DNA from: Prolixibacteraceae bacterium
Lineage (GTDB): Bacteria; Bacteroidota; Bacteroidia; Bacteroidales; Prolixibacteraceae
Assembly (NCBI GenBank): GCA_021740385.1
Contig: JAIOZY010000001.1
Location: forward strand, 62,001-126,000
Direction of reading: 5' to 3'
DNA: 64,000 nucleotides
Notes under the pieces: generated by a model
Seen by the model: the letters and a program-made list of their open reading frames with translations, nothing else
What the model was told of the DNA's origin: nothing
The model's database searches: none
Shown here: positions 23,270 through 45,630 of the stretch, piece by piece
Numbering within the stretch: position 1 is the first letter of the stretch
How the letters are laid out: each line of letters begins with the position of its first letter
Translations under genes and position numbers: made by a program

Positions 23270-23593
23270 TGTAACTGAAATTAGCAACTATGCCCGGGTA
23301 CATTAAATCTGTAAAACGCGCATTAGCCCAATAACCCGACATTATTGCACTTTAATATAAAAACGTTTGCCTATGTAAAATTTAAACCAATAACCTGTTT
23401 GCCTTATGAAGCAGTGAGTTAAACAGGCGTATGGCGTTGTTAAGCCAGGCAGTGGTTCAATTGTTGAATTGATTATTGTACCATAAATAAAGGCAGCGCC
23501 ATCCGAAAATAACGCTGCCTCGTGAACACCAATTAATACAATGATTAACGGCTTTAGGGAGCCTCCACTCCCCGGCCACAAATGTAAATAATT
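23270..23593 (+). promoter_or_regulatory. Leader of envelope locus I with two hairpins
   Basis: No credible gene lies in 23077-23593. The last 100 bases contain GGCAGCG...CGCTGCC (23492-23519, seven perfect pairs) and then GGGAG/CTCCC near 23558-23573, ending 20 bases before the ATG of the first gene. The same arrangement (7-bp GGCAnCR/YGnTGCC hairpin 40-75 bases before the first ATG) recurs at 33601 and 40774. No U-run follows the main hairpin, so it is not a simple terminator. Confidence 0.6.
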
Positions 23594-24685
23594 ATGAAAA
23601 AGTATTTTGTATTTTTATTCATTATTTGTGTAATTCTTTTTTCCTGCGAAAGGGAAAATGAAATCCTCGATTCAACCCAAAATGAAATTGCTCCAAAAAT
23701 CCTCAATATTGAAGGAATTGAAGTTGGAAGCGAGAACGGGTATTTGGTTCTAAAAAACTTTAATGATGTTATCCAATTAGTGACTTTATTGGAAAATGTT
23801 ACAGATGAAGAATTAGAAGTATTTAATCAGAAACATTGTTTCACTTCAGCTTATGTGTTTAGAAAAGAGCAAAATATAAAACTAATGAATTTGAAAGATG
23901 AAACAACAGCACAATCAATTATTGAGGAATTAAAGTCTGAAGGATACTTTGATTCTGAAACAAATTCTATGGCTTATCCTTTTGTAATTAATCCTTGGGC
24001 AAAAGTACTTAATAAAGAAGGTATTATTAAAATAAATAATTCGTTGCTTAGATTTTGGAAGGATAATCAAATATGTTCAGAAGCGAGCGATTTAGATGCA
24101 TTAATTAAAGTTAGCTCAAATGAAGATATTGATAATTTCCATTTAAAAAATTCAAAAATAATATCAAATACTCAAGGGGAAAAGATCAGCGAAAATTTAA
24201 AATCATTACCCATTCCTAATTATGACCATCAATTTTTCTCTACAGGTTATTTTGATACGTTTAATTGGGTGGCAGGAAAACGTTATGTTAGAAGAACAAA
24301 TTTATATAGTTTGATTGTAACAGATTATAGCAATAATGTATCTCAACATTATGTGTATGTCGGTCATCTTCTTTTTGTTGAAGGTTTTTTGGGAATATGG
24401 TTTGATTATTATGATTATTTATATTTCAAATTTTTTGATTTAACAATTGGCGGCAATCCAAAATCGTCAGACAGTGGTTATGGTAATCATGACTATACTG
24501 ATTATCATTGTCAATACCCTAGTACCGGAGGTGGTTTAATTCAGCGAGCAGAACACAGTTATTATCTTTATGATGATAGTTTTTATCCTTCGATACCGAA
24601 TTATTTAACGCCATATTTTGGAGAGTTTAAATATGAGTATTGGACGAACAAAGTACCATCAAAGGGTTGGTTGATAATAGATTGA
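23594..24685 (+). CDS. Variable surface lipoprotein, envelope locus I
   Basis: 363 residues, lipobox ILFSC then ERENEILD. The N-terminal half has the pattern NGYLVLKNFNDVIQLVTLLENVTDEELEVFNQKHCF, seen also in the locus III lipoprotein (NNILVFENIDELNECTVFLNKIGEENFDAFEEAIGF) and reminiscent of DUF4848-type Bacteroidota lipoproteins. The C-terminal half is rich in Tyr, Asp and Gly strands (KRYVRRTNLYSLIV...HYVYVGHLLF). It is clearly more A+T-rich than the receptor genes downstream. It is separated from them by a strong hairpin terminator, so it is expressed in excess or alone. Function unknown. Confidence 0.75.
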   Translation: MKKYFVFLFIICVILFSCERENEILDSTQNEIAPKILNIEGIEVGSENGYLVLKNFNDVIQLVTLLENVTDEELEVFNQKHCFTSAYVFRKEQNIKLMNLKDETTAQSIIEELKSEGYFDSETNSMAYPFVINPWAKVLNKEGIIKINNSLLRFWKDNQICSEASDLDALIKVSSNEDIDNFHLKNSKIISNTQGEKISENLKSLPIPNYDHQFFSTGYFDTFNWVAGKRYVRRTNLYSLIVTDYSNNVSQHYVYVGHLLFVEGFLGIWFDYYDYLYFKFFDLTIGGNPKSSDSGYGNHDYTDYHCQYPSTGGGLIQRAEHSYYLYDDSFYPSIPNYLTPYFGEFKYEYWTNKVPSKGWLIID

Positions 24686-24700
24686 AAAAGAAATGACTAA

Positions 24701-24750
24701 ACACGGGACGATATCTCTATATTAAACAAAGGAATCGTTCCGTGTTTTTT
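24701..24750 (+). terminator. Rho-independent terminator within locus I
   Basis: ACACGGGACGAT pairs over 12 positions (one G-U) with ATCGTTCCGTGT, followed by six T. It lies 15 bases after the lipoprotein stop and 21 before the next gene. It probably allows partial read-through, giving high lipoprotein and low receptor levels. Confidence 0.88.
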
Positions 24751-24770
24751 AATGAAATAATTATATTTAG

Positions 24771-25445
24771 ATGAATTTTAAAAGAATCACATTCATTATT
24801 TTTCTTTTTGCAAGCTTTTTATGCTTAAATGCTCAGGACAATTTAAAAGTTGGGGGTGCAATTAGTGGCGGTTACACGGCAATTAGCGACCCGTTTTTAA
24901 TGGGAGTTCGTTATCGTGCCCTGATAAATGATAGCTACCCTTTTCATGCCGGTGCTTATGCCGAATACACATTTAAGAGACTAACAATCCATTCGGGCAT
25001 TAACCTGGGCTACGAAAGGTGCAATTTGCTGTACAAAGACATTGTAGGGACAGACAGTATTTTGAAAAACGATCCGAATGCCAATTCTTTAGAATTGTTA
25101 AATAATCCTTTAATGATTTACGATCACATTAATTCATTTAGTGTAAGCATCCCGTTAATTTTAAAGTTAAAACTGATCAGTAAATTTTTTGTTTCAGCAG
25201 GATTAAAAGGTCGTTACTATTTTCATTCGCGGGTATTTCATCCTTTCAACGGTGAAACCAGTTTTGGAATTGGGTTTCAATATCCAAAATTATGTTTTTC
25301 AATTTCGGTTGATACCCCTTTGCGGGAGAACGGTTTTGAAATGATCAACAATAACCATATTCCAGATACTGAATACCAAAATAATCTGGTTTATACTCAG
25401 CGTTCGGTGACTTTTAATATATCTTATTTGTTATGGTCGAAATGA
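24771..25445 (+). CDS. Outer-membrane beta-barrel protein, locus I
   Basis: 224 residues with signal peptide (FIIFLFASFLCLNAQ). The mature part alternates amphipathic strands (NLKVGGAISGGYTAI, FHAGAYAEYTFKRLTIHSGINLGYERC, SFSVSIPLILKLKLISKFFVSAGLKGRYYF) and ends SVTFNISYLLWSK, an aromatic-rich last strand. Consistent with a small 8-10 stranded barrel of the PorT/OmpA-like type. Its stop overlaps the DUF4249 start (ATGA). Confidence 0.78.
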   Translation: MNFKRITFIIFLFASFLCLNAQDNLKVGGAISGGYTAISDPFLMGVRYRALINDSYPFHAGAYAEYTFKRLTIHSGINLGYERCNLLYKDIVGTDSILKNDPNANSLELLNNPLMIYDHINSFSVSIPLILKLKLISKFFVSAGLKGRYYFHSRVFHPFNGETSFGIGFQYPKLCFSISVDTPLRENGFEMINNNHIPDTEYQNNLVYTQRSVTFNISYLLWSK

Positions 25446-26347
25446 TTAAGAAACTGATTTGTTTCATTGTCGCCTTGTTTATGCTCAATGCCTGCATTTT
25501 AGATGTAGAAGTAGAACTCCCGCTCGAAAACAGCATCGTTCTAAATGGCTTTTTGGTTCCAGGTGATACCGTTTCGGTTTCGTTGAATCGTTCGGGCGCA
25601 AGTACCGATACTGCTGGTTTTGAGGAGATCAGAGATGCCACCGTAACTTTGTTCGAAAACGGTGTAGCGTTGGGTTTACTTCACTATAAAGGAAACGGAA
25701 TATACCGGGCAGAGACCGTTGCCAAAGAGCTTACTGCTTATAAAATTGTGGTTGAAACGCCAGAGGGTGAAATGGCTTGGGCTGAAACTACTACGCCCGA
25801 AATTGAGTTTGGGGCTTCAATTGATAAAATAAACGATTTATATGGATTCAAAAGCGGAAACTATATCCTTGAACTTTCAGACAACCCAAATATCGACAAT
25901 TTTTACTGGGTTTGTATTGCACGTACCGATTCAGTTTACAACTCGGGAACCACTAAAAACCTGGCCTATTCGCTCTATACCAATTCACCTTATATCGACA
26001 GGTTTAACATGACTTATGATCCGATGGGTTCTGATGGGTATTATTACGATTACGAAATGTTTCTACATTTTGATGACAGATCATTTTCAGGTGAGACAAT
26101 AACTATTGATTTTATTCAAACAGGAGCATGGAACCTAAAAAGCGAGAACGTTTTATTTTTTAACGCCGATATACATTACAGTAACTATTTTAAATCGAAA
26201 TTGATTTCTGAAAAGGGAGGAGAATATCTGGCAGAAGATATGCCGCCATTAAATTATGTCCCTTCTTTTTTGTACACCAATGTACATAATGGTATGGGCA
26301 TACTGGGTTCTTATTCATTTTATTCAAGAGTTTTTACTTATGATTAA
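25442..26347 (+). CDS. DUF4249 lipoprotein, locus I
   Basis: 301 residues from ATG 25442 (MIKKLICFIV); a start at 25433 is also open. Lipobox MLNAC then ILDVEVELPLENSIVLNGFLVPGDTVSVSLNRS, the DUF4249 hallmark opening. It continues with DATVTLFENGV...YRAETVAKELTAYKIVVETPEG and ends in the family pattern (YTNVHNGMGILGSYS). DUF4249 proteins are encoded next to TonB receptors and are predicted periplasmic or outer-leaflet partners. Coupled to the barrel (4-base overlap) and the receptor (8-base overlap). Confidence 0.9.
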   Translation: MIKKLICFIVALFMLNACILDVEVELPLENSIVLNGFLVPGDTVSVSLNRSGASTDTAGFEEIRDATVTLFENGVALGLLHYKGNGIYRAETVAKELTAYKIVVETPEGEMAWAETTTPEIEFGASIDKINDLYGFKSGNYILELSDNPNIDNFYWVCIARTDSVYNSGTTKNLAYSLYTNSPYIDRFNMTYDPMGSDGYYYDYEMFLHFDDRSFSGETITIDFIQTGAWNLKSENVLFFNADIHYSNYFKSKLISEKGGEYLAEDMPPLNYVPSFLYTNVHNGMGILGSYSFYSRVFTYD

Positions 26348-28667
26348 TACGGTTGACAATATAAAACATAAATTGTTTTTTCTGTTGATGTTTTTATCAC
26401 AGATAGCCTATTCTCAACATACCCTCTCGGGCAAAATAACCGATATCGAAACAGGCGAATCCCTGATTGGTGCAACCATATACAATCCCGGGGCAAAGCA
26501 GGGGACAAGCTCAAACGCATATGGTTTTTACAGCCTGAACCTGCCGGTTGGAAAGCAGAAAGTGGTTTTTAGCTTTGTTGGTTATGAGCCGCAGACCATT
26601 ATGGTTGATCTGAAAAACGATAGCACGCTAAACATTGGGTTAACCTCTAACAATGTCCTTTCGGAAGTAACGGTTACCGAATCGCGCGGGCAATATTTCC
26701 TGAGCGGTGTACAAATGGGTGAAAACAGGTTGACAGCCCGCGAAATTGAAAACCTGCCGGTGGTGTTGGGCGAAACCGATGTGTTGAAAGCCATCCAGTT
26801 GCTGCCGGGGGTGAATGCCGGGAACGACGGTACGGCCGGTATTTCGGTGCGCGGAGGCAGCCCCGACCAAACCCTTATCCTGCTCGACGAGGTGCCGGTG
26901 TACAACGTGAACCACCTGTTCGGCTATTTTTCGGTGTTTAACAACGATGCCATTAAGGAGGCCAGCCTGATCAAGGGCGCTATCCCGGCCCAGTACGGCG
27001 GTCGCCTGTCATCGGTGCTCGATATCAGGATGAAGGAAGGCAATCTGAAAGAACATACCGGCAAAGCATCGCTTAGTACCCTTTCGGGGAAATATACAAT
27101 CGAAGGGCCAATTATAAAGGGGAAAGCCTCTTACATGCTGTCGGGACGGGCTACCTGGCTCGACCTGCCTTTGCGGTTGTATTTTTACCTTACCGATAAC
27201 GACATGAAAGTGTACTACTCGTTTTGGGACCTGAACGGCAAGGCCAATTTCGAATTATCAAACAACGACAGGCTGTTTGTCAGTTTTTATGGCGGTAACG
27301 ATGAATTCTTTGTGGGGAATGAAGGCGATGATTACTTTGCCGGGAACAGTAATACAAAGTATCAGTTTAGCTGGGGCAACTACACGGCCTCCGCACGCTG
27401 GAACCATATTTTCAGTTCAAAGCTCTTTTCAAACCTCACGGCCTATTTTAGCAGGTACAATTACAGCCATTTGTATGAAATGAAAAGTACCAGTGACACA
27501 CTTATTATTGACACATACTCTTCGTTGGCCGATGCCAGCCTGAAATATGATTTTGATTACTACCCCGACAATGTCCATAAAATAAAATTTGGCACTAAAC
27601 TTTCGTACCTGTTCTTTCAACCCGAAAAAACCGATTTCGACACAGTAACAGCAGGGTTAAGTTCCCACTACCAGGCCCCGGTTGTTGATTTATACGTTAA
27701 TGACGAATTCCTTTTGGGTGAAAAATTGAGGGTGAGTGGCGGCCTTCGCTTGTCGTCACTGAAAAGGGGGGATGAGTTTGATTTTCATCTCATGCCACGT
27801 TTTTCGGCGTGTTATCCACTTTCACCTTCCCTTTCGCTTAAAGCCGGATATTCAATGATGGTTCAGCATCTGCACCAGCTTACCAATCCTTCGTTGAGCC
27901 TGCCTACCACCATGTGGGTGCTGTCGAATTCATCGCTCGAATCATCGTCCTCAAACCTTTCTTCATTTGGCTTGTATTACATGAATGATAAAGGGCTTGA
28001 ACTTTCGGGCGAGGCCTATTTCAATACCATGGACAAGGTGATTGATTACAAGCCCGGAAAAGAAAATTTCAAAATAAATGAAGAACAATGGGATGAAAGC
28101 GTGATGGTGGGCGAAGGTTTTTCGTACGGCATCGAACTGTTTGCAAAATACCGGTTTGGCAGTTATTACGGCCAGTTGAGCTACACGTATTCCCGATCGT
28201 ACCGAAAATTCGATGAGCTGGCCCACGTGGGCTACTACCCGTACATGTACGACCGTCCCCACAACATTTCGCTGCAAATAACCAGGGAGTTTGAAAATAG
28301 TGCCGATGCAAAATTCAACAAACGCTTAACCCTGAATTTTAATTATATGAGCGGCCATTTAATTTCGTTTTCAAATTACACCATCCCGGCAATCCTTCCA
28401 TCGGAATTTGAAGGCTACAAACACCATATAAGTGATTTTAATTATTACATTCCTCACCCCAACAATGTGAGGCTGCCGGCCGTGCACCACCTCGACCTTT
28501 CATTTCATCTGGAAAATAAAACGAAAGAAAAAAGTTCGTGGGTGTTCAGTATTTACAATATTTACAACCGGAAGAACATCAGTTTTTACTACGTTCAAAA
28601 TGATCAGATAAAGGGAGCTGCCCTTTTACCTATCATCCCGTCGGTTACCTGGAATTATAAGTTTTAG
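26340..28667 (+). CDS. TonB-dependent receptor, locus I
   Basis: 775 residues from ATG 26340, which follows the DUF4249 coding overlap and opens a proper signal peptide (FFLLMFLSQIAYSQ). Carboxypeptidase-regulatory domain at about residues 27-100 (LSGKITDIETGESLIGATIYNPG), plug at about 120-235 (ETDVLKAIQLLPGVNAGNDG, ISVRGGSPDQTLILLDEVPVYN), then a 22-strand-type barrel ending IIPSVTWNYKF. There is no SusD homologue nearby; DUF4249 occupies that place. Transports an unknown substrate across the outer membrane. Confidence 0.93.
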   Translation: MINTVDNIKHKLFFLLMFLSQIAYSQHTLSGKITDIETGESLIGATIYNPGAKQGTSSNAYGFYSLNLPVGKQKVVFSFVGYEPQTIMVDLKNDSTLNIGLTSNNVLSEVTVTESRGQYFLSGVQMGENRLTAREIENLPVVLGETDVLKAIQLLPGVNAGNDGTAGISVRGGSPDQTLILLDEVPVYNVNHLFGYFSVFNNDAIKEASLIKGAIPAQYGGRLSSVLDIRMKEGNLKEHTGKASLSTLSGKYTIEGPIIKGKASYMLSGRATWLDLPLRLYFYLTDNDMKVYYSFWDLNGKANFELSNNDRLFVSFYGGNDEFFVGNEGDDYFAGNSNTKYQFSWGNYTASARWNHIFSSKLFSNLTAYFSRYNYSHLYEMKSTSDTLIIDTYSSLADASLKYDFDYYPDNVHKIKFGTKLSYLFFQPEKTDFDTVTAGLSSHYQAPVVDLYVNDEFLLGEKLRVSGGLRLSSLKRGDEFDFHLMPRFSACYPLSPSLSLKAGYSMMVQHLHQLTNPSLSLPTTMWVLSNSSLESSSSNLSSFGLYYMNDKGLELSGEAYFNTMDKVIDYKPGKENFKINEEQWDESVMVGEGFSYGIELFAKYRFGSYYGQLSYTYSRSYRKFDELAHVGYYPYMYDRPHNISLQITREFENSADAKFNKRLTLNFNYMSGHLISFSNYTIPAILPSEFEGYKHHISDFNYYIPHPNNVRLPAVHHLDLSFHLENKTKEKSSWVFSIYNIYNRKNISFYYVQNDQIKGAALLPIIPSVTWNYKF

Positions 28668-32675: not shown

Positions 32676-33402
32676 GATTTTGGAATACGGTTTACTCGGA
32701 TTTTCAAGGAAGAATTAAAGTCCACAGATGCACACAGATACACACAGATGAATTTTTTGTTACCCCCCGCTGCCGCACGATTGTATCGTGTGGTTTTGCC
32801 GCAGGCTAAGCTTTATTATAAACAATTCGTAAGCTAAAACTTTATCTTTTTGTTGTTTAACCAACAAACCACGCGTGAGGACACGCGCGGCAGCGGGGGA
32901 TAATCACCATATTATTAAGCTAATACATTGTTTTTTTGACCACAAATTGAAAAAAAATCAATTTTGATGGTAACCTTTTTGCCTTTTTGGGAATAAAGAG
33001 GTAGAAACGCCGTTTTTCGAATTTCCGTCTCAATTATTCAAAATATAATTTACTGCATTTTAAAAAGAAAACACTGATAAAGTTTGGTGGTATTCTTTTT
33101 TTTTTTTTAGGTTTGTGGTATTAACCCATAAAATTAAATGCGCGTGGAATTAAAAAACACTAGTATGCCCTTTTTACCCGTGATGTTTTGTGAAGTTGGA
33201 TTTTGAGTGAAAGAATATCACTAACCCCGTCCTGAAATTTCGGGATTAACCCGGAGGTTAGAAGAGGATATTTTTTTAAAAACCGGCCATGGTAGCTCCA
33301 ACAAAAAGGAGAAAAAGCTGTATGGCCTGTCTGCCGACAGGCAGGCCGGAATGGAAAAACCAACAAAAGATTGAATAACCAAAAAATAACCAATAATGAA
33401 AC
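32676..33402. other. Long intergenic region after zupT, no gene
   Basis: It contains CACACAGAT-type short direct repeats (32715-32750), a full MITE copy (32764-32899) and a T15 homopolymer near 33100. It also holds the segment CCCGTGATGTTTTGTGAAGTTGGATT (33176-33201), which recurs at 40259, and a palindrome GGCCTGTCTGCCGACAGGCAGGCC near 33322. No open frame there has a credible start or composition. Confidence 0.7.
32764..32899. mobile_element. MITE-like element, full copy 1 (136 bp)
   Basis: Terminal inverted repeats CCCCCGCTGCCGC / GCGGCAGCGGGGG, each followed inward by its own small palindrome (CACGATTGTATCGTG on the left, CGCGTGTCCTCACGCG on the right, read inward) and GTGGTTT. The middle is A+T-rich (GCAGGCTAAGCTTTATTATAAAC) without a coding frame. 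A near-identical copy lies at 45847-45987 and a left-end fragment at 40192-40230. No transposase is in the window. Target duplications are not clear. Confidence 0.85.
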
Positions 33403-33465
33403 CAATATCAAATATCCAACATCGAGCATCCAATATCGAGCATCCAATATCCAATATCGAATAAC
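33403..33465. repeat. Heptamer array before locus II
   Basis: Nine 7-base units in register, mostly CAATATC with CAACATC, GAGCATC and GAATAAC variants. It is followed by the sequence AATATGAACCCTTAAAACCCAA, shared with the locus III leader. Confidence 0.9.
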
Positions 33466-33469
33466 CAAC

Positions 33470-35405: not shown

Positions 35406-35412
35406 ATATTTA

Positions 35413-35446
35413 TGCACCTCAAATATTGTTTTGAGGTGCATTTTTT
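35413..35446 (+). terminator. Rho-independent terminator after the locus II lipoprotein
   Basis: TGCACCTCAAA pairs with TTTTGAGGTGCA around a TATTG-type loop, then six T (35441-35446). As in locus I, a terminator separates the first lipoprotein gene from the receptor part of the locus. Confidence 0.9.
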
Positions 35447-35469
35447 AAATTTCTTTAAAAATTAAAAGT

Positions 35470-36408
35470 ATGAAAACTGTAAAATGTTTTGTAAAAATTT
35501 TATACTCATTAACCATATTATTTTTTACCTCATGCGATGGGCCTGATATAAAAATGCCTGTTGTCCAAATCGATTCGATTTCCAACATATCACACAATTC
35601 GGCTTTTGTATATGCCACAATTGTTGACGATGGAGGCTCAACCCCGGCTTTTGGGGGCGCTGCATGGTCCGACAGCCCTGGTGTAACGCTGGAAGATACG
35701 ATTACAAAAGTTGGGAGTTACATTCATTTCAATGTTGCAATTGCGGAACTAGAGCCGTACAAAACCTATTTTGTAAGACCCTATTGTGAAGATCATCGGG
35801 GTGGTGTTTTGGGAGAAGAAATAAGCTTTACATCAAAATCAGTGGAAACTTATACCGATTCGCGTGATGGCAATGTTTACCCGGTTCTCCCTCTCGGGAA
35901 TTTGATCTGGTTTGCTGAAAACCTGCGTTTCAATTCTGAAGAAGGATGCGTTCCTGTTCTGAATGATAACTATACCGAATTAACCCGATTTGGCAACTTG
36001 TACACTTTTGAAACCGCGCAAAACGTTTGCCCCGAAGGCTGGCGTTTGCCTGCCGACGATGATTGGAAAGATTTGGAACGTTTTGTAGGTGTTCCCGAGG
36101 AGGAAATTGATGCTGCCCGAACTACCGATGCGGGTCTTCAGCTAATAATCCCGGGTAAAAAATACTTTAAGTATTTTAATAATGGAACGAATTGCACGGG
36201 TTTCTCTGCTTTACCGGCAGGATATTATACAAAAGATGATGGTTACAGCATTTTTGGTACATCAATAATATTTTGGTCAAATACAATTACAAATGATGAA
36301 GCAATTAAAAGAATCTTTGATCAAGATGGAGGCATAATATACCGGGAACACGTATATGAAACAAATAGCTATTATTCAGTTCGTTGTGTGAAAGATAATA
36401 ACCAGTAA
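35470..36408 (+). CDS. FISUMP-domain lipoprotein, locus II
   Basis: 312 residues, lipobox FFTSC then DGPDIKMPVVQID. An N-terminal Ig-like strand region (ISNISHNSAFVYATIVDDGGSTP...PYKTYFVRPYCED) is followed by the Fibrobacter succinogenes major paralogous domain at about 135-310: YTDSRDGNVYPVLPLGNLIWFAENLRF, GNLYTFETAQNVCPEGWRLPADDDWKDLE and the closing YYSVRCVKD. This C-type-lectin-like domain occurs on secreted and cell-surface proteins. Three bases before the receptor gene, so co-transcribed with it. Confidence 0.88.
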   Translation: MKTVKCFVKILYSLTILFFTSCDGPDIKMPVVQIDSISNISHNSAFVYATIVDDGGSTPAFGGAAWSDSPGVTLEDTITKVGSYIHFNVAIAELEPYKTYFVRPYCEDHRGGVLGEEISFTSKSVETYTDSRDGNVYPVLPLGNLIWFAENLRFNSEEGCVPVLNDNYTELTRFGNLYTFETAQNVCPEGWRLPADDDWKDLERFVGVPEEEIDAARTTDAGLQLIIPGKKYFKYFNNGTNCTGFSALPAGYYTKDDGYSIFGTSIIFWSNTITNDEAIKRIFDQDGGIIYREHVYETNSYYSVRCVKDNNQ

Positions 36409-36411
36409 TTT

Positions 36412-38766
36412 ATGAAAATTTGTCGATTATTAATTATCTCTTTTTTCATTTATGGCTTTATTTTTACCGGTTTTACCCAGGATAAATCATTCATTATTAG
36501 CGGGTATGTACAGGATGCATCGTCGGGGGAGCGATTGCCCGGTGCAGGGATATATTGTGCAGAAACCGCAAGGGGAACCCAGACAAACACCTATGGGTTT
36601 TTCTCAATTTCACTTTCAGAAATGAACAGAAATATCGAGGTTTCTTATATCGGATTTACGGCTAAGAAAATTGAAATTGCTGCTGTCAAAGATACGTTCA
36701 TTGTTGTTTCCCTGAATAAAAAACAGTTTGAGATTGATGAAGTGCTTGTGTCGGCAGATAAAACACTACAGTCGGTTCAACGTATAGGAAAACATCAGCT
36801 TACATCCTCTCAAATTGAAAAGATACCGATAGTGCTGGGTGAAACCGATATATTAAAAGCGTACCAAATGCTGCCCGGTGTGCAAACCGGCATACAGGGC
36901 ACTTCGGGTATGGTGGTCAGGGGCAGCGACCCGGGGCAAAACCTGATCTTACTGGATGGTGTGCCCGTGTACAATGCCAGCCATCTTTTCGGTTTGTTTT
37001 CTGTATTCAATTCCGATGCAATAAACAGTAGTACGCTCATTAAAGGGGCTTTCCCTGCCCGTTACGGTGGACGGGTTTCTTCGGTAATGGATATCCGCAT
37101 GAAAGAGGGCAATAACCAGAAACTGAAAGGGGTGGCATCGGTAGGATTAATTTCTGCGAAATTTTTGTTGGAGGGGCCGTTAATTAAAGGGAAAACATCT
37201 TTTATGTTGAGTGCCCGGACTACTTATATCGATTTGTTTACTTCCCTGTATCAAAAACTATTATATGGAAATACTGCGTTGTTTTCATACAATTTTCATG
37301 ATTTGAACCTGAAAGTAAATCATAAGATAACTGATCATAACCGACTGTACTTTAGTATGTATTATGGAAAAGATGTTTATAATAATACAATGAAATTCGA
37401 TGATGAAACCGATTCAATACAAACAGAACATGATAACGGTTTCAACTGGGGGAACCTGACAGCTACCCTGCGATGGAATTTTCAACCCGGGAAACGTTTG
37501 TTTTTTAATACCACTTTAATATACAGCCGGTATGCTTTTGAAACACATACAATGACAAAAACGACCTATGCCGCTGATACGACTGGTAAATCATCGGTTT
37601 TTGAACTTGGTTTTAATTCCGGCATTGAAGATTACGGGGCAAAGGTTGATGTGGATTATTGGCCGGGTAAAAACCACAGGGTACAGTTTGGGGCACTTTA
37701 TACCCATCATCGGTTTAAACCAGGCGTGAACATTGTCGATTTCACTGATTTTGGCAACTTGTTAAAGGCCGATACCATCGATCATCAGGAAGAATTGTAT
37801 AACAACGAGGCTGCCCTTTACCTGGAGGACGAATGGAGCATATCCCCTGAATTCATGGTGCAGGCCGGGATCAGGGGTACATCATTTTTTACCGACACCA
37901 AAACATATTACAGCATTGAGCCCCGCTTGTTTTTGAAGTATACGTTGAACAGTAACAACTGGTTTGGGATGGCCTACTCGAGGACTTCCCAAAACATCCA
38001 CCTGCTGACCAATTCATCGGTTGGATTTCCTACCGACCAGTGGGTACCGGTTACCGACAGTGTAAAACCAATTCTGGCTAATCAGTATAACATTTCATAC
38101 AATCTGAATTTTGACCCCGGTTACAGTTTTTCGGTCGAAGGGTTTTACAAGGACATGCAAAACGTTGTGGAGTACCAGGAAAACGCTAACCTAAAGAATA
38201 ACTGGCAGGAAATTATCGAACAAGGCGAAGGAAAAGCTTATGGGATTGAACTCCTATTGAAAAAGGAAAGCGGCAAGCTGACAGGCTGGCTGGCATATAC
38301 GCTCTCGAAATCGGACAGGATTTTTAAAGATATTAACAACGGCATTGTGTTTCCTTACAAATACGACAGGCGGCACGATTTTAAAATCGTAATGATGTAC
38401 CCTCTAAGTGAGAAGATTGACATTGGCGTTAACTGGGTGTTTACCACAGGCCATGCGGTTACCCTCCCGCTCGAAAGGATTTACAACGCAACTTCCCTCG
38501 ATAGATTGTTTTATGGATACTACTATACCCCGGAAGTATACACCTATGATACGAAAAATAATTTTAGGATGCCCGATTATCACAGGCTCGACATTACCGT
38601 GAACTTTAGCAGGAAGCTGGGCCGTTTCGACCGTACATTAAGCCTGGGTGTTTACAATGTATATGCACACCATAACGCGCTCTATTACGATTTTTTCGAG
38701 GGCAAGTTAAGAAGCATCAGCTATCTAAGTGTTTTGCCGTCGATTAATTATGTGTTGCGGTTTTAG
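36412..38766 (+). CDS. TonB-dependent receptor, locus II
   Basis: 784 residues with signal peptide (FFIYGFIFTGFTQ). Carboxypeptidase-regulatory domain at about 25-105 (ISGYVQDASSGERLPGAGIYC), plug about 130-240 (ETDILKAYQMLPGVQTGIQG, VVRGSDPGQNLILLDGVPVYN, GRVSSVMDIRMKEG), barrel to the C-terminal aromatic strand (LPSINYVLRF). Closely parallels the receptors at 26340 and 43255. Unlike loci I and III, its DUF4249 partner lies downstream, not upstream. Confidence 0.93.
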   Translation: MKICRLLIISFFIYGFIFTGFTQDKSFIISGYVQDASSGERLPGAGIYCAETARGTQTNTYGFFSISLSEMNRNIEVSYIGFTAKKIEIAAVKDTFIVVSLNKKQFEIDEVLVSADKTLQSVQRIGKHQLTSSQIEKIPIVLGETDILKAYQMLPGVQTGIQGTSGMVVRGSDPGQNLILLDGVPVYNASHLFGLFSVFNSDAINSSTLIKGAFPARYGGRVSSVMDIRMKEGNNQKLKGVASVGLISAKFLLEGPLIKGKTSFMLSARTTYIDLFTSLYQKLLYGNTALFSYNFHDLNLKVNHKITDHNRLYFSMYYGKDVYNNTMKFDDETDSIQTEHDNGFNWGNLTATLRWNFQPGKRLFFNTTLIYSRYAFETHTMTKTTYAADTTGKSSVFELGFNSGIEDYGAKVDVDYWPGKNHRVQFGALYTHHRFKPGVNIVDFTDFGNLLKADTIDHQEELYNNEAALYLEDEWSISPEFMVQAGIRGTSFFTDTKTYYSIEPRLFLKYTLNSNNWFGMAYSRTSQNIHLLTNSSVGFPTDQWVPVTDSVKPILANQYNISYNLNFDPGYSFSVEGFYKDMQNVVEYQENANLKNNWQEIIEQGEGKAYGIELLLKKESGKLTGWLAYTLSKSDRIFKDINNGIVFPYKYDRRHDFKIVMMYPLSEKIDIGVNWVFTTGHAVTLPLERIYNATSLDRLFYGYYYTPEVYTYDTKNNFRMPDYHRLDITVNFSRKLGRFDRTLSLGVYNVYAHHNALYYDFFEGKLRSISYLSVLPSINYVLRF

Positions 38767-38893
38767 AAAACATTGTTCTATGCAGCCGAGTTAAATTATA
38801 GGTAATGATTTTGGCTGAAATAATAAAGGCTTACAGCCTTATAAAAAAGTAAAAAATAATCTGTCGGATAAATTTTTTTAATTATCGATAAAA

Positions 38894-39844
38894 ATGAAAA
38901 CTTTTCACAGATACAAGTACAGTAAGCTGCTCGCAGCCCTGCTCATTGTTGCATTTTTCATTTCCTGCAGCGAAAAATACCACGATCTGGAATTACCCGA
39001 TTTTGAACCAAAACTGGTGGTGAATTCTTTTTTCAGGGAAGGAAAACCGTTCAGGGTAAGTGTTTCGAACAGTCAGGGGCGGAACAACACAAATAAACTT
39101 TTCCCGGTTGTTGGGGCTCAGGTCGATTTGTATGAAGACAATATTTGGGTTGAAGCGCTTGAAGGTAGCCGGGATCCTGAAATAGCGGGTGGGGATTCGA
39201 TATGGAAATGGTTTTTTTACAGCTGCGAGGTATTGCCCCGCGAAGGCCACACCTACCGTTTGGAAGTTTCTGCTGAGGGTTTTGCATCGGTAACTGCCGA
39301 AAGTACCATACCACCGCGAACGGAACTTGAAATCATCGATACCTCATGGATAAAGAGGGATTATGACAAGTTTCTTAAAGTTGATCTGGAAATGGAAAAT
39401 CCTGATGATAAAAGGTGGTTTCAACTGATCGTATCGAACCTGTCATACATTCTTGAATTCGATAGTCTGCAAAACGATGTGATTGTCGGCTATAAAGATC
39501 ATGGGACTACTTTTGATATTAACGACCCCGTAATTGGGTTAAGGGAGCAAAGGCTTAATGAAGATTACCTTGTTTTTTCAAATGAACTGATGTCTGAAAA
39601 AATACATCCATTTTCGGTTGAGATAAGCAGATCGAAAATTATATACGAGATGGTAGGAATCGATTTGGTTACACTAAGCGATGAAGCATACAAGTACATG
39701 GTCACTTTAACCGATTTCAAGAACAACGATATGCGCTATAGCGAACCGGTAAAAATATTTACCAATGTGAATGGCGGATATGGCATTTTTGCTGGTATTA
39801 ATGTTGAATGTGATACCATTAACTTATTTAACCAGCTTTATTAA
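38894..39844 (+). CDS. DUF4249 lipoprotein, locus II
   Basis: 316 residues, signal and lipobox FFISC then SEKYHDLELPDFEPKLVVNSFFREGKPFRVSVSNS. The opening block, the middle VGAQVDLYEDNIW and EGHTYRLEVSAEGFASVTAESTIP, and the end PVKIFTNVNGGYGIFAGIN are all typical DUF4249 features. It lies 127 bases after the receptor. The first ~20 residues hold several K/R, and the ATG is preceded by an A+T-rich stretch, so a separate weak promoter is possible. Confidence 0.9.
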   Translation: MKTFHRYKYSKLLAALLIVAFFISCSEKYHDLELPDFEPKLVVNSFFREGKPFRVSVSNSQGRNNTNKLFPVVGAQVDLYEDNIWVEALEGSRDPEIAGGDSIWKWFFYSCEVLPREGHTYRLEVSAEGFASVTAESTIPPRTELEIIDTSWIKRDYDKFLKVDLEMENPDDKRWFQLIVSNLSYILEFDSLQNDVIVGYKDHGTTFDINDPVIGLREQRLNEDYLVFSNELMSEKIHPFSVEISRSKIIYEMVGIDLVTLSDEAYKYMVTLTDFKNNDMRYSEPVKIFTNVNGGYGIFAGINVECDTINLFNQLY

Positions 39845-39983
39845 GCTGATATGCTGATATTATGAAATGGATTTTGGATTTTTGTTGAATGCAGGGATCG
39901 GGTATCGGTTTTAAAATGGGATAAAATAAATATCCCCCGGTAACCGTTTATTTATCAATATGAACTAACTAAACCAAAACAGC

Positions 39984-40235
39984 ATGAAACACTTTCAAAA
40001 ACGATTTCTTTTAATCTTGTTCGTTTGCCTTATTGCCCAAAACTGCTTTGCCCAACCCCCAAAGCAATTCGGGCTTTCTGTAATCCCCGGTTATGCCACC
40101 TTTTCAACCAACAACGAGCAGGGAATGTCCCTTTCCGGTGAGTTCATGTATAAATTCAACAGGTGGGTAAACCCGGCATTGCGCATCTCATCCCCCCGCT
40201 GCCGCACGATTGTATCGTGTGGTTTTGCCGAATAA
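39984..40235 (+). pseudogene. Outer-membrane barrel gene cut short by a MITE fragment, locus II
   Basis: The signal peptide (LILFVCLIAQNCFAQ) and about 50 mature residues match the locus III barrel: FGLSVIPGYATFSTNNEQGMSLSGEFM against FELSVHPGYSQFSTHQENGMSVFGEFV. After NPALRIS the sequence runs into the left end of the MITE (from 40192). The last residues (PRCRTIVSCGFAE) are encoded by the element and a stop follows. The rest of the barrel, about 130 residues, is gone. Confidence 0.85.
40192..40230. mobile_element. MITE left-end fragment inside the barrel pseudogene
   Basis: CCCCCCGCTGCCGCACGATT... through GTGGTTTTGCCG is identical to the first 39 bases of the full copies. The element then stops and joins sequence shared with the region before locus II (AACACC..., CCCTTTTACCCGTGATG). 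The break probably reflects a deletion between repeats. Confidence 0.85.
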
Positions 40236-40443: not shown

Positions 40444-40519
40444 GTGTAAATACTTAGGTGTACTATTTAAAAAATGGAATGCAAACAAAAAAATGAGTAC
40501 CCAAAGAATATTAAATTGC

Positions 40520-40582
40520 CAATATCCAATATCCAATACTCAATACTCAATACTCAAAACTCAAAACTCAAAACTCAATAAC
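40520..40582. repeat. Heptamer array before locus III
   Basis: Nine 7-base units in register: CAATATC x2, CAATACT x3, CAAAACT x3, CAATAAC. Same position and register relative to the following leader as the array at 33403. Confidence 0.93.
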
Positions 40583-40584
40583 CA

Positions 40585-40848
40585 ACAAACATAAATATGA
40601 ACCCTTAAACCCAAAGTCTATGAAAGTACCCTGAGCCGCCGGCCGTCCGTGCATGAGCATGCCTTATCGAATTGTGAAGTTTGGTAGCCTTTGCAGGCCC
40701 CGTTAATTCGGGATCACTTTTACCTTTGTAATTGAGTGTGTTTTGCTCCTCAATCCCGGGTAATGTAAAAGAAGGCAACACGGACGGTCACCCATACACA
40801 TGTTGCCTAAAAATAAAACTAAAAAGTAACAACAAAAGTAAAACAATT
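40585..40848 (+). promoter_or_regulatory. Leader of envelope locus III
   Basis: It starts AATATGAACCCTTAAACCCAA like the locus II leader. Hairpin GGCAACA...TGTTGCC (40774-40807, seven pairs with compensated base changes relative to loci I and II) lies 41 bases before the ATG at 40849. No coding frame is supported in 40236-40848. Confidence 0.62.
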
Positions 40849-41742
40849 ATGAAACAAAATATTTTATTAATCGTCGTATTGGGAATACTTTTTTTGACTG
40901 CATGTTCAGAAAAAGAAGATTTAATTAATTCTGTCAAACCAGAATTCGAATTTGACCTAAGTGATATAAAGGTTGAAGTTGATAATAATATTCTTGTTTT
41001 TGAAAACATAGATGAACTGAATGAGTGTACTGTTTTTTTAAATAAGATAGGAGAAGAGAATTTTGATGCATTTGAAGAAGCTATTGGTTTTATGAGTTAT
41101 AGACGACACAATAAATTGCTTATTAACAAATATTATCCAGACAATATCATAAGGACTTTTATGAATCCAAACAATGAAATAATAGTTGATAATTATTTGT
41201 ATGAAATTATACCTGAAAAAGATTCAGTTTGTGTTTATAAACTGGAAAAGGATGCTTATGGGTGTAAATTTCCAAATGTTTCTTATGATTATATTTTATC
41301 AGTAAAGGACGATATTTATTCAATTGTGTATGAAGATATTTCTTTAAAAAGTGCATCAACAGGTTACTGTGATTTTAAGCAAAAGAAATCTCCAATTTTA
41401 AATTGGTCATATGAAATTTATCATTTAGCACAATATGATCCATTTTTTTTGTGGCGCTCCTTTTATGCTTATATTTCGAAAGAATCATTGGGTGGAACAC
41501 TTTTTATTAGTTTGCATACAAGGAATGATATAACTTCGCATTATGAATGGAAAAATGGAAGCATTGGTAGTTTTTCATTGCATAATGACGGAGGAAACGG
41601 TTTATTTTATTCAATTAATTTATCAGTACCCAGGTTAACATCTTTTAGTTTTAATGTAGAATTTGATGTTTGGGATACGTATACATTTGAACAAAATGCA
41701 TACTGGATAAGTATAGATTGTGAAGATGGTGTAACATACTAA
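40849..41742 (+). CDS. Variable surface lipoprotein, envelope locus III
   Basis: 297 residues from ATG 40849 (MKQNILLIVVLGILFLTAC); the frame runs further upstream only through the leader hairpin. Lipobox FLTAC then SEKEDLIN. The N-terminal block VDNNILVFENIDELNECTVFLNKIGEENFDAFEEAIGF parallels the locus I lipoprotein. The C-terminal half is aromatic and beta-rich (ILNWSYEIYHLAQYDPFFLWRSFYAYIS). A+T-rich. Followed after 21 bases by the barrel gene. Function unknown. Confidence 0.75.
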   Translation: MKQNILLIVVLGILFLTACSEKEDLINSVKPEFEFDLSDIKVEVDNNILVFENIDELNECTVFLNKIGEENFDAFEEAIGFMSYRRHNKLLINKYYPDNIIRTFMNPNNEIIVDNYLYEIIPEKDSVCVYKLEKDAYGCKFPNVSYDYILSVKDDIYSIVYEDISLKSASTGYCDFKQKKSPILNWSYEIYHLAQYDPFFLWRSFYAYISKESLGGTLFISLHTRNDITSHYEWKNGSIGSFSLHNDGGNGLFYSINLSVPRLTSFSFNVEFDVWDTYTFEQNAYWISIDCEDGVTY

Positions 41743-41763
41743 TAATCTAAAAAAGAATTGCTG

Positions 41764-42354
41764 ATGAAGTATAATTTTTTAATAAAGTTGATTGTATTTA
41801 TAGTTTTCAATTTTCTGGCAAATACAATTTATTCTCAATTTCAACAATCGTTTGAGTTATCTGTTCATCCGGGATATTCTCAGTTTTCAACGCATCAGGA
41901 AAATGGGATGTCTGTATTTGGTGAATTTGTGTGGAATAATAATAAATTTATAAACCCATCGTTGAGAGTGGGATCCTCTGCCGGGTTCAAATTAGTTGAA
42001 GAAGGAATGGGGGCATATAATGTTTTATTGCATTCTGTATCATTAAATGCTATTGTGGATTTTTTAAACTCAAAATCTGTTCATAATATACAACTTGGAT
42101 TAGGGCCATGCTTGCATTTTGAGATGTATAGTTATCTTTTGGAAACTCATAATATTGAAGGATTAAACAGAAATGTAAATGAGTTCGTTTCAGTGGGATA
42201 TTATTATTTTGGTATCGACTATTTTTTGCGTTACAAATATCAATTCTCTGAACATTTTCAGGTAGGGCTTGAATGGAGTGAAACCGGGTTGTTTTCTGCT
42301 GGAAAAGTAAAGCAATCAGCTATATCTTTAACTCTTACTTCTTTAATCTTTTAA
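41764..42354 (+). CDS. Outer-membrane beta-barrel protein, locus III
   Basis: 196 residues from ATG 41764 (MKYNFLIKL); a TTG two codons earlier is less likely. Signal peptide ends NTIYSQ. The strands FELSVHPGYSQFSTHQENGMSVFGEFVW, NPSLRVGSSAGFKLV, NIQLGLGPCLHFEMY, YYYFGIDYFLRYKYQF and the last SAISLTLTSLIF fit a small barrel. It is the intact counterpart of the fragment at 39984. A visible shift to higher G+C begins at the next gene, one base downstream. Confidence 0.78.
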   Translation: MKYNFLIKLIVFIVFNFLANTIYSQFQQSFELSVHPGYSQFSTHQENGMSVFGEFVWNNNKFINPSLRVGSSAGFKLVEEGMGAYNVLLHSVSLNAIVDFLNSKSVHNIQLGLGPCLHFEMYSYLLETHNIEGLNRNVNEFVSVGYYYFGIDYFLRYKYQFSEHFQVGLEWSETGLFSAGKVKQSAISLTLTSLIF

Positions 42355-42355
42355 A

Positions 42356-43258
42356 ATGAAGCGAATAGGTTTGTCATATTTGTTCCCTGTCCTGACCTTG
42401 TTTGCACTTCTTCACTTCTCGTGCAAAAAGGAAGTGTTTATCGATATCCCGGATCATGAATCACAGATTACGGTAAATGCTTTCCTTGAAAACGGGCAAG
42501 AAATAGCGGTGCATGTCAGCCAAAGCGGGCAGATCAGTGAAAGCATCGATTCGTTTTTACAGGGCGCTACAGTGGTTTTGTTTGCCGATGATGTACCGGA
42601 TACATTGGCATTTTCGGATGACCATTGGTACAAAACCGGGCAAAAGGCATCTCCCGGTATAAATTATTTATTAAAGGTTTACCACCCCGATTTTGAAGAA
42701 ACGCTGTCGGGAGATGCTTTCCCTGCCCCCGTTCCTTTTGTTCTGAAAAATTTTATATCCAAAGATGCGGTTGATGAATGGGGGTTTATCTATTCAAGCA
42801 TTGATGTGGTTTTTAACGATGACCCTGGCCGGAACGATTATTATGAACTTCGAACCGAACTTGGGGAGACTGTCAGGCAGGAAAGCAATATGATTTTTAA
42901 CGGGGGTACCCGAAGCAACGATGTAATTATCAAAAACGAAGGATTTACCGGGGAATTTTTTACGGGAGGCATAGCTTTTTCTGATAAACTTTTCAACGGT
43001 GATACTGCTTCAATAAAGATACGTTTTGCTTACAACGCGAATGTCGATTACGTGTACATCATCCTCCGTTCGGTAAGTGAAAACTACTACCAATACAAAA
43101 AAAGCTACTACCGTTATACCGTTAATGCTTCGAACGATATTTGGAATACATCCAACCCGGTTGGCCTGTTTACCAACATCGAAAACGGGTACGGCATTTT
43201 TGCCGGTTATTCCGAAGTGAAAGATTCAATTTATACCTATTCTGAACACCACGAATGA
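42356..43258 (+). CDS. DUF4249 lipoprotein, locus III
   Basis: 300 residues, lipobox LHFSC then KKEVFIDIPDHESQITVNAFLENGQEIAVHVSQS, the DUF4249 opening. Middle: ATVVLFADDVPD, PGINYLLKVYHPDFEETLSGDAFP. End: NPVGLFTNIENGYGIFAGYSE, nearly the same closing motif as the locus II protein. Overlaps the receptor start by four bases (ATGA), so the two proteins are made in step. Confidence 0.92.
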   Translation: MKRIGLSYLFPVLTLFALLHFSCKKEVFIDIPDHESQITVNAFLENGQEIAVHVSQSGQISESIDSFLQGATVVLFADDVPDTLAFSDDHWYKTGQKASPGINYLLKVYHPDFEETLSGDAFPAPVPFVLKNFISKDAVDEWGFIYSSIDVVFNDDPGRNDYYELRTELGETVRQESNMIFNGGTRSNDVIIKNEGFTGEFFTGGIAFSDKLFNGDTASIKIRFAYNANVDYVYIILRSVSENYYQYKKSYYRYTVNASNDIWNTSNPVGLFTNIENGYGIFAGYSEVKDSIYTYSEHHE

Positions 43259-45630
43259 TGAAAGGGACGATAAAATACCGAATCCTGTACGGGTATGTGC
43301 TGGCCTTCATGTTGGTTTTCAGTTTTACACTTTGTGAAGCACAGGTTACGCTAAGCGGCTATGTCTCCGATTCTGAAACGGGCGAACGGCTAATTGGCGC
43401 CTCGGTGTACAACACGGCTACCCACAAAGGGACATCGACCAATGCTTATGGTTTTTTCAGCATTACCCTGAAACCCGGTTCGGTTGCAGGCATAAGGTTT
43501 TCTTTTGTGGGATATGAACCGGTTGACCTGGAATTTTTTCCTGAAACCGATCAGCAGGTAGAGATAAAACTGTTTCCGGGCAGGGAGATCGATGAGGTGC
43601 TGGTTACCCGGTCGGCCATGCAGGGTAGCCGTTCCGAGATGAACACAACGGTAATGCCCGTGCGGGAAATCAAACAACTGCCTTCCCTTGGCGGCGAGGC
43701 CGACCTGATGAAAACCATCCAATTATTGCCGGGTTTCAAATCGGGAGGCGAAGCGTCGAGCGGGCTGTACGTGCGAGGCGGCAGCCCCGACCAGAACCTG
43801 GTCATGATCGATGATGTGCCGCTTTATTACGTGAACCACCTCGGCGGTTTTGTTTCCATCTTCAATGCCGATATCCTGAGCGATGTAAAGCTTATAAAGG
43901 GCAGTTTCCCTGCCCGTTATGGTTCACGCCTCTCGTCGGTGGTCGACGTTCGCATGAGGGACGGGAACATGAAAAAAAGGGAGATCAACGGCACCTTTGG
44001 AATGGTTACCACTAAAATCTCAATCGAAGGGCCGGTGAAAAAAGATACCTCTTCGTTCCTGATATCGGCCAGGCGTTTCATGTACGATGTACTGCTGATC
44101 CCTTTGTCGAAACTCATTCAGGACGGGGGCTGGTTTGGGTATTCATTTTACGATGTTAATGCGAAGTACAACCATATTTTTTCAGAAAAAGACCGTTTGT
44201 ATGCCAGTTTTTATATGGGGCAGGATAATTCGGATTTTGGTTATGACGATAATAACGTAGCTACTAAAATGCTCCATACGGTTAAATGGGGCAACCTGGC
44301 CGGGGCAGTGCGCTGGAACCATGTGTTCAACCCCGGGCTGTTTGCCAATGTTACGGCCTCGTATACAAGGTACAGGTACGGATTGGAGGATATTGCCAAA
44401 ACCGATTCAACAGGCGGGAACAGCTATTTCAACAACAACTATTCTTTCGAATCGGAGATTCAGGATATTGCATTGAAGGCCGATTTTAACCATTACATCG
44501 TTCCGGGATATGAGCTACGGTACGGGGCAGGGGGGACATACCATTATTTTCTCCCGGCAAATACCAATATCAGTATAGAAAGAGAAGATATAAAAACCCA
44601 AACCGTTTATGGCTTCGACCCGATGAACGCTTTTGAAGGCTTTGCCTACCTTGAGAATATCCTTCAGTTGGGCAAATCGCTCGATGTGAACATTGGCGGG
44701 CGGTATTCAGCATACTATGTAAACCAAAAATTCTATAACTGGTTTGAACCCCGGGCCATGCTTGCACTGCAACTGGGCAGCGGGTATAGCCTGAAAGCCG
44801 GGTATACGCAAATGAACCAGTTTGTGCACCTGCTGACAAGCGAGGGCATGGGCATCCCGGCCGATTACTGGGTGCCGGCAACCGATACGTTGCCGCCTTC
44901 GCAGGCAGTGCAGTACGGACTGGCTCTCGAACGTGAAGACCCGTTGGGCGAATACCGCTGGAGCATTGAGCCGTATTACAAAACCATGGCCAACCTGATT
45001 GCCTTTAAGGAAGGGTATTCAAACCTGTACACGGCTACCAACTGGCAGCAGGTTGTTGAAAAAGGCGGCAGGGGCGAATCGTATGGCGTGGAACTTTTCT
45101 TCCGTAAAATGAAGGGGAAGAACACCGGATGGATCGGCTATACCCTGGCATGGACAAACCGGCAGTTTGAAAACATCAATTCAGGCAGGTCCTACCCGTT
45201 CCGGTACGACCGCCGCCACGATGTCAGCATTGTTTACAACCGGAAGATCAGGGAGAACATAGACTTTTCGGCAACCTGGGTTTTTGCCACAGGTAACGCG
45301 TTTACCCTTGCAACTGCCCGCCATTGGGTAATTAATGATTTGGAACGGCTTGTCCTGGCCGATGTTTATGGCGAAAAAAACAGTTTCCGCATGAAGCCCT
45401 ACCACCGTTTGGACGTGGGCATTAACTTTCACAAAGAAACCAAATGGGGCGAACGTACCTGGAGCTTCAGCATTTACAATGTATATAACCAACTAAACCC
45501 TTATTTTTATAACTGGGGCACCGAATACAATGGAGCCCCCGGCTCTGTCAGTTCCATTCCCGAACAAAAATTATATCAGTACAGTTATTTCCCGATCATG
45601 CCTTCGGTAAGTTACAGTTTTAAGTTTTGA
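43255..45630 (+). CDS. TonB-dependent receptor, locus III
   Basis: 791 residues with signal peptide (YVLAFMLVFSFTLCEAQ). Carboxypeptidase-regulatory domain about 28-110 (LSGYVSDSETGERLIGASVYN), plug about 135-250 (EADLMKTIQLLPGFKSGGEA, YVRGGSPDQNLVMIDDVPLYY, GSRLSSVVDVRMRDG), barrel ending YFPIMPSVSYSFKF. Third member of the set with 26340 and 36412; all lack an adjacent sigma/anti-sigma pair, so regulation is likely through the shared leader. Confidence 0.94.
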   Translation: MMKGTIKYRILYGYVLAFMLVFSFTLCEAQVTLSGYVSDSETGERLIGASVYNTATHKGTSTNAYGFFSITLKPGSVAGIRFSFVGYEPVDLEFFPETDQQVEIKLFPGREIDEVLVTRSAMQGSRSEMNTTVMPVREIKQLPSLGGEADLMKTIQLLPGFKSGGEASSGLYVRGGSPDQNLVMIDDVPLYYVNHLGGFVSIFNADILSDVKLIKGSFPARYGSRLSSVVDVRMRDGNMKKREINGTFGMVTTKISIEGPVKKDTSSFLISARRFMYDVLLIPLSKLIQDGGWFGYSFYDVNAKYNHIFSEKDRLYASFYMGQDNSDFGYDDNNVATKMLHTVKWGNLAGAVRWNHVFNPGLFANVTASYTRYRYGLEDIAKTDSTGGNSYFNNNYSFESEIQDIALKADFNHYIVPGYELRYGAGGTYHYFLPANTNISIEREDIKTQTVYGFDPMNAFEGFAYLENILQLGKSLDVNIGGRYSAYYVNQKFYNWFEPRAMLALQLGSGYSLKAGYTQMNQFVHLLTSEGMGIPADYWVPATDTLPPSQAVQYGLALEREDPLGEYRWSIEPYYKTMANLIAFKEGYSNLYTATNWQQVVEKGGRGESYGVELFFRKMKGKNTGWIGYTLAWTNRQFENINSGRSYPFRYDRRHDVSIVYNRKIRENIDFSATWVFATGNAFTLATARHWVINDLERLVLADVYGEKNSFRMKPYHRLDVGINFHKETKWGERTWSFSIYNVYNQLNPYFYNWGTEYNGAPGSVSSIPEQKLYQYSYFPIMPSVSYSFKF

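Follow-up and report, generated by a model that had tools for sequence, protein, structure and literature searches.

Why are operons for TonB-dependent receptors headed by lipoprotein genes that differ from one locus to the next, and do these genes have anything in common? The question is raised by three loci, I (23594–28667), II (33706–40235), and III (40849–45630), in a stretch of 64,000 nt from a Prolixibacteraceae bacterium (GCA_021740385.1, contig JAIOZY010000001.1, positions 62,001–126,000 of the forward strand), referred to below as the window, whose coordinates are used throughout. The main new result is a non-coding leader of ~130 nt with two hairpins, the 3′ end of which lies at the start codon of the first gene; it is present at all three loci, as had been proposed earlier, and recurs elsewhere in the family. 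From comparisons of sequence and gene order, it is on balance probable that the loci are uptake operons in which the leader works as a cis-acting mRNA element with a common factor, and in which the lipoprotein and a neighboring small barrel are occasionally replaced.

Each locus contains a receptor gene adjoined by a gene for a DUF4249 lipoprotein (77.6, 104.8, and 99.9 bits at loci I, II, and III, respectively, against the Pfam cut-off of 28.5). The order in loci I and III is lipoprotein, small barrel, DUF4249, and receptor, whereas that in locus II is a first lipoprotein of another type, a Fib_succ_major lipoprotein, the receptor, DUF4249 (with a gap between these two), and a truncated barrel. 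A first-pass annotation of this DNA had described three paralogous loci with common receptor, DUF4249, and barrel types but different first genes. The loci are real, their open reading frames lie where that annotation placed them, and the receptors and DUF4249 proteins are confirmed by their Pfam domains; locus II, however, is not of the same type as loci I and III, differing in gene order, in its extra lipoprotein, and in its truncated barrel. Likewise, the first gene of locus II is indeed of another type, but those of loci I and III proved to be distant relatives, with ~19% identity and one shared profile. Nor do the three loci form a closed set: the genome has 19 DUF4249 matches, 18 of them above the Pfam cut-off, so that the window loci are a sample. 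The features are as follows, with R1 denoting a covariance model built from nine leaders, including leaders I and II.

23460–23596, + strand: leader of locus I (R1 match, E 4.0e-14; R1 training sequence)
23492–23519 and 23557–23572, + strand: hairpins 1 and 2 of leader I
23594–24685, + strand: locus I first gene, lipoprotein with predicted DUF4848-like N-domain and divergent beta-rich C-part
24699–24746, + strand: terminator-like hairpin 3′ of the locus I first gene (fold z −4.5)
24771–25445, + strand: locus I small outer-membrane barrel (no Pfam match)
25433–26347, + strand: locus I DUF4249 lipoprotein, putative lid, with divergent middle (Pfam 1.5e-21)
26340–28667, + strand: locus I TonB-dependent receptor (Pfam CarboxypepD/Plug; 92% identity to the sister species)
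33569–33708, + strand: leader of locus II (R1 E 1.9e-24; R1 training sequence)
33601–33635 and 33665–33690, + strand: hairpins 1 and 2 of leader II
33706–35405, + strand: locus II first gene, other lipoprotein type, in two frames (33706–34107 and 34083–35405), with weak fn3
35412–35441, + strand: terminator-like hairpin 3′ of the locus II first gene (fold z −6.5)
35470–36408, + strand: locus II Fib_succ_major lipoprotein (Pfam 1.7e-31), retained in the sister species
36412–38766, + strand: locus II TonB-dependent receptor (Pfam CarboxypepD/Plug)
38894–39844, + strand: locus II DUF4249 lipoprotein (Pfam 7.7e-30)
39984–40235, + strand: locus II barrel, truncated at a repeat element starting at 40192; homologue intact in the sister species
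40745–40851, + strand: leader of locus III, with hairpin 1 at 40774–40807 (R1 E 4.5e-12, 3′ end of the match misplaced beyond the ATG)
40849–41742, + strand: locus III first gene, locus I-type lipoprotein
41758–42354, + strand: locus III small barrel (weak OMP_b-brl, 0.043)
42356–43258, + strand: locus III DUF4249 lipoprotein (Pfam 2.4e-28)
43255–45630, + strand: locus III TonB-dependent receptor (Pfam CarboxypepD/Plug)

Relatives carry leaders with the same layout and different stem sequences, and a second covariance model, R2, was built from 15 of these. Plain-sequence searches had failed—a 139-nt DNA query returned nothing beyond its own sequence and short matches of low score, and the one site hit by a strict pattern was locus II—so covariance models were needed. 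The structure is conserved. In the alignment of 15 leaders, which was not fitted to a model, 20 two-sided base changes were counted, compared with 7.1±2.5 after shuffling. Among 51 distinct R2 sites (covering 51 of 65 R2 matches, after removal of three duplicate loci) there are 91 such changes against 26.1±5.6, with 11 of 14 pairs varying on both sides and slid controls reaching at most 24, and 29 R1 sites yield 29, compared with 6.6±1.9; these two alignments lean towards their own models. Compensatory changes thus exceed the controls in all three alignments, and counts from slid controls stay far below those observed. At the Rfam gathering score only a tRNA was detected in the whole window, and leaders I and II, searched against Rfam by E-value, scored at chance level.

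Two possible additions to the structure were left out of the claim. An upstream segment complementary to hairpin 1 was found with p<=0.022 at five of nine leaders (I, III, C61b, C95, and the sister species' I, the last having nearly the same sequence as leader I; C-numbers denote contigs of the genome studied here, G000) and with p 0.17–0.86 at II, C97, C88, and the sister species' II. An H-type pseudoknot in relatives (AAGGG/CCCTT) scored 209 against 154±8 after shuffling, but swapping loops between sequences gave 201±9, leaving it without covariation support.

In its own genome, R1 gave 11 matches with E < 1e-6, two of which share sequence across a contig join (C1/C40) and are counted as one site, giving ten sites in all; one of the two was also left out of the 29 R1 sites above. 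Eight of the ten leaders head receptor operons, seven of these with DUF4249 above the cut-off and the eighth, on C100, with a weak DUF4249 match (23.3 bits vs 28.5). Another leader heads a gene, starting just 5′ of the window, for a 545-aa lipoprotein with a HELSH motif recognized by eye; in this region (L144, G000:C38:60500-67000, overlapping window positions 1–5000) the gene is followed by four small lipoprotein-like open reading frames of two alternating types. The leader at the contig join (L146/L145, ends of C40 and C1) heads a C25 (gingipain-type) peptidase gene. The leader pairs C95/C38 and II/C97 are near-identical over 300–350 nt, and the pair C88/C100 is near-identical with a diverged stretch in between; behind all three pairs the genes cannot be aligned above background. 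Leaders before unrelated genes of one genome thus stay near-identical as far as the ATG. The pair C61a/C61b shows the opposite, with the gene start conserved and the proximal leader diverged.

Among the 140 Prolixibacteraceae genomes surveyed, representing 23 genera, R2 gave 65 matches in 44 genomes, with one to four per genome; 50 matches, in 32 genomes, lie outside the training set. R1 gave 30 matches in nine genomes, none shared with R2, and one or the other leader was found in 53 genomes. Since R1 weakly scores four R2-type leaders at the correct places (E 0.013–0.36) and the layout is common to both, the two types were treated as one family. A search with R2 in other families of the order (0 of 295 genomes) is uninformative, as the genome studied here and at least three family members included there also gave no match. 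The ATG, itself included in the model, closes 48 of the 51 R2 sites. At 26 sites the frame that follows belongs to the lipoprotein family described below; the others lead into locus II-type lipoproteins, tail-fibre-like exported proteins (judged by eye), further lipoproteins, and broken frames, and one site lies shortly 5′ of a gene for a 1960-aa protein. A frame of fewer than 100 residues follows the leader at 13 of the 51 sites; the first gene is thus often broken, although metagenome assembly errors may account for part of this. At L155, L161, and L193, the A run past the ATG is one base shorter and the lipoprotein is out of frame, possibly through slipped-strand switching or an assembly error.

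A profile built from eight first-gene-type lipoproteins matched in 41 of the 140 genomes and 12 of the 23 genera, with ten stretches in the genome studied here. The leader was found in 38 of these 41 genomes, compared with 15 of the 99 lacking the family. For a member from Draconibacterium, the N-domain of the predicted structure (mean pLDDT 75.6) folds like the DUF4848 domain of 4lb8 (BT3222), with the alignment covering model residues 42–160 (Z 9.0, rmsd 2.7, 119 residues). The profile search of the family reached 4lb8/DUF4848 at 3.2e-6, and nine of 20 members match Pfam DUF4848 (PF16140; best 1.5e-10); the lipoproteins of loci I and III, taken singly, fall below that Pfam model. The model of the locus I protein is confident in the N-domain only, its C-part being poor (mean pLDDT 55.5), and fold searches with the C-part gave only weak, general beta-sandwich matches. 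From these models, the family is best described as having a DUF4848-like N-domain joined to a divergent, beta-rich C-part for which there is no clear common fold. One study has DUF4848 in a table row for BT3221–23, which were 10.0- to 14.6-fold down under iron depletion (P 0.002–0.084; PMC10434189). A phage origin was set aside, as no relative was found in viral contigs.

The lipoprotein, DUF4249, and receptor genes occur together beyond this genome. In 16 of the 39 other matching genomes the neighborhood was examined, and DUF4249 and the receptor adjoin the lipoprotein gene on the same strand in 15; the 16th is cut by a contig end. One of the 15 has a transposase-like open reading frame in or beside the lipoprotein gene, between it and the receptor and DUF4249 genes (L151:5671-6648). 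In named organisms, mostly Prolixibacteraceae (Tangfeifania, Draconibacterium, Mariniphaga) and partly overlapping with the 16 loci, DUF4249 and/or the receptor lies downstream at 16 of 19 loci, and two more are cut by contig ends. The 19th, in Chitinophaga vietnamensis (L230:6905-8056), is a relative of the lipoprotein with neither receptor nor DUF4249 nearby.

Between species, alleles and modules have been replaced at these loci. The comparison rests on the sister species (G001), the sole other genome of the genus, with an orthologue from another genus (L229) as outgroup for the locus I trees. At locus I, DNA identity is 97% over the leader (23450–23599) and 87% over the gene start (23600–23749), falls to ~0.5 across the lipoprotein and barrel, and is higher again in DUF4249 and the receptor. 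The first ~50 codons are retained, and divergence starts near codon 50, inside the gene. In the proteins, the receptor is 92% identical, DUF4249 62% (0.42 in its middle), the barrel 28–30%, and the lipoprotein body 29%. The outgroup is closer to locus I in the lipoprotein body (0.46) and barrel (0.39) than the sister species is (0.29 and 0.28). Indeed, the two sister species were grouped together in 0 of 2000 bootstraps for the lipoprotein body and eight of 2000 for the barrel, compared with 1997 of 2000 for the first 50 residues and 2000 of 2000 for both DUF4249 and the receptor. At locus II, the sister species has the same leader followed by a I/III-type lipoprotein with its own receptor and DUF4249, and then the shared Fib_succ gene—that is, a different cassette behind a conserved leader. 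At locus III, its leader and lipoprotein are absent, its barrel resembles II at the start and III at the end, and the receptor is 92% identical over residues 1–616. Thus, the lipoprotein that the first-pass annotation called variable and exchangeable does vary between loci, in both N-domain and C-part, but between species only episodically: replacement of an allele is seen at locus I, and in other species pairs the lipoprotein tracks its own receptor. In three pairs it is under purifying selection (dN/dS 0.08–0.26), so that diversifying selection by point mutation was not seen, and its dS exceeds that of DUF4249 and the receptor, as is expected from import of divergent alleles.

These observations bear on whether anything beyond ordinary uptake operons is needed, with the leader as a generic translation or stability element and the lipoprotein as a fast-evolving accessory ligand binder without any exchange system. 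That account, which we consider rather doubtful, draws on the tracking of receptor by lipoprotein in the other pairs and the low dN/dS, on a layout that is common in the family, and on a leader that heads several kinds of exported-protein genes. It fits less well with the small number of leaders per genome (one to four with R2, ten sites here) and their link to one lipoprotein family, with the tree incongruence at locus I, and with the raised lipoprotein dS. A second account takes the leader as a DNA-level recombination site, or as a hairpin recombined as single-stranded DNA, with a site-specific recombinase switching or swapping the genes behind it. Its attraction lies in mycoplasma Vpma/Vsp systems, in which, according to the part of the source available, a conserved 5′ untranslated region and signal peptide precede divergent lipoproteins, the recombination sites lie at −1 to −72 relative to the gene, and a linked recombinase acts (PMC2268961). 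Leaders of the window type are similarly conserved blocks directly before the start codons of divergent lipoprotein genes. The Mycoplasma system, however, is described there as one locus with one promoter and a linked recombinase, whereas the operons here are dispersed and no linked tyrosine recombinase was found: the three tyrosine-recombinase (PF00589) matches, on contigs C6, C48, and C63, are none of them with a leader site, other recombinase types not having been searched. Furthermore, the leader also heads the C25 peptidase gene, and the change at locus I starts within the gene rather than at the leader. A recombination site is accordingly regarded as distinctly unlikely.

In the reading that we favor, a TonB receptor with a DUF4249 lid, usually accompanied by a small barrel and headed by the structured 5′ leader and a surface lipoprotein, would constitute an outer-membrane uptake operon, the products of which may form a complex. 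The leader would be a cis-acting mRNA element common to the variable lipoprotein genes and some genes for other exported proteins, and a common trans-acting factor, either a protein or a small RNA, would most likely set the expression of the leader genes jointly. The lipoprotein body and barrel would occasionally be replaced through homologous recombination between conserved flanks, namely the leader plus signal-peptide region as one flank and DUF4249 and the receptor, or repeated barrels, as the other. Such replacement would alter what the cell surface can bind or be bound by, and leave the transporter unchanged; it could be driven by a change of ligand or by escape from phages or bacteriocins. 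The conserved receptor points to an unchanged transported substrate, which would mildly favor escape or recognition. It is also possible, if tentatively so, that a single trans-acting factor reads the dispersed leaders, with a regulon of lipoprotein, peptidase, and other exported-protein genes in Prolixibacteraceae, and that the block of leader and signal peptide serves as the homology arm for lipoprotein exchange on TonB-receptor/DUF4249 platforms. A precedent for such control comes from Bacteroides, where, with FopS small RNAs and RbpB, first genes of SusC/TonB-transport operons are controlled through RNA (PMC11697453). FopS are there separate small RNAs acting in trans, whereas the leader is a cis element without an Rfam match.

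Several observations weigh against this reading. The leader of locus III shows no evident hairpin 2, and shuffled sequences fold locally as well as it does (z −0.57). The balance of G-U and A-C pairs is 24 vs 14 in hairpin 2 and 3 vs 16 in hairpin 1, so that the hairpins disagree on strand. The motif TAnnTTTG occurs near 45 leaders 14 times, against 4.4±2.0 with simple shuffling, and its positions are scattered, with no clear promoter position. Three genomes carry the lipoprotein without the leader, and in the genome studied here R1 does not match at the lipoproteins C61a and C15; the R1 and R2 leaders, which we infer to be one family, are recognized by two models with no genome in common. The replacement case comes from one species pair and one outgroup, residues 51–134 at locus I leave the tree undecided (401 of 2000 for sister grouping), and the other pairs speak for tracking.

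Recognition or defence, as the first-pass annotation suggested, is conjecture for these loci. It is highly unlikely that lipoprotein and barrel work as a toxin/receptor-allele or immunity-like pair, linked and exchanged jointly in the manner of secreted antimicrobial proteins of Bacteroidales: the joint replacement of lipoprotein body and barrel and the presence elsewhere of leader genes for proteins with small lipoproteins after them fit such a pair, but PADLOC-DB gave no match for nine proteins, Pfam shows no toxin domain in the lipoproteins, the C-part resembles known folds only weakly and in a general way (best Z 5.7), and the middle of DUF4249 is also divergent, which equally fits ligand recognition.

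Should the leader act as RNA, it would be an element with strong covariation that is absent from Rfam. Genes whose roles are unknown, coding for DUF4848-like lipoproteins and for further exported proteins, would then form a single set that can be tested in a family with cultured members, e.g., Tangfeifania diversioriginum. DUF4249 receptors would gain a third, changeable surface partner, which would bear on what these receptors recognize and on how cells escape attack on them. Shared folded leaders before replaceable surface-protein genes hint at a common control element for change at the cell surface. Neither the leader nor this set of lipoproteins was found described in the literature searched, which is weak evidence, as preprints and most subscription journals were outside its scope.

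The pairing of DUF4249 with the receptor, and the idea of a lid, are already published. In the portion of the article available, a subfamily of TonB receptors is nearly always encoded beside DUF4249, and DUF4249 as a receptor lid (BT2172/BT2173) is given as a proposal of Price, Deutschbauer and Arkin 2023 (cited in PMC11003636). The same pair of lid and TonB transporter is found in the window loci, which have in addition a variable lipoprotein and a leader, neither mentioned in that portion of the account. The loci resemble SusCD/RagAB systems in having a TonB receptor with a CarboxypepD domain and a lipoprotein partner. They differ in that no SusD was found among the Pfam matches of 16 proteins (the three loci and their neighbors), in line with the earlier view, and in that the receptors of loci I and III reach 63.2 and 50.2 bits, respectively, far under the NCBIfam SusC/RagA cut-off of 368.25, that of locus II being unlisted.

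Other features noted previously also hold. Coupling of DUF4249 to the receptor in loci I and III agrees with overlapping frames: at locus I an in-frame receptor ATG lies at 26340 and the DUF4249 stop ends at 26347, making 26340, rather than 26256, the likely receptor start, and at locus III the ATG is at 43255 and the stop ends at 43258. The first genes are A+T-rich (GC 0.276–0.329: 0.293 in I, 0.276 and 0.329 in the two frames of II, and 0.276 in III) compared with the receptors (0.418–0.489: 0.452, 0.418, and 0.489 in I, II, and III, respectively), and those of loci I and II are followed by the terminator-like hairpins listed above. Besides these features, the first gene of locus II is split around an exact 17-bp tandem duplication (34077–34110). 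A repeat of ~137–143 bp, bounded by inverted copies (CCCCGCTGCCGC ... GCGGCAGCGGGG), occurs at 32763–32899 and 45845–45987 and, as a partial copy where the locus II barrel ends, at 40192–40230. Runs of CCAATATC-like units lie at 33402–33498 and 40519–40615, immediately 5′ of leaders II and III, and likewise 5′ of leaders C88, C97, and C100 and of locus II in the sister species.

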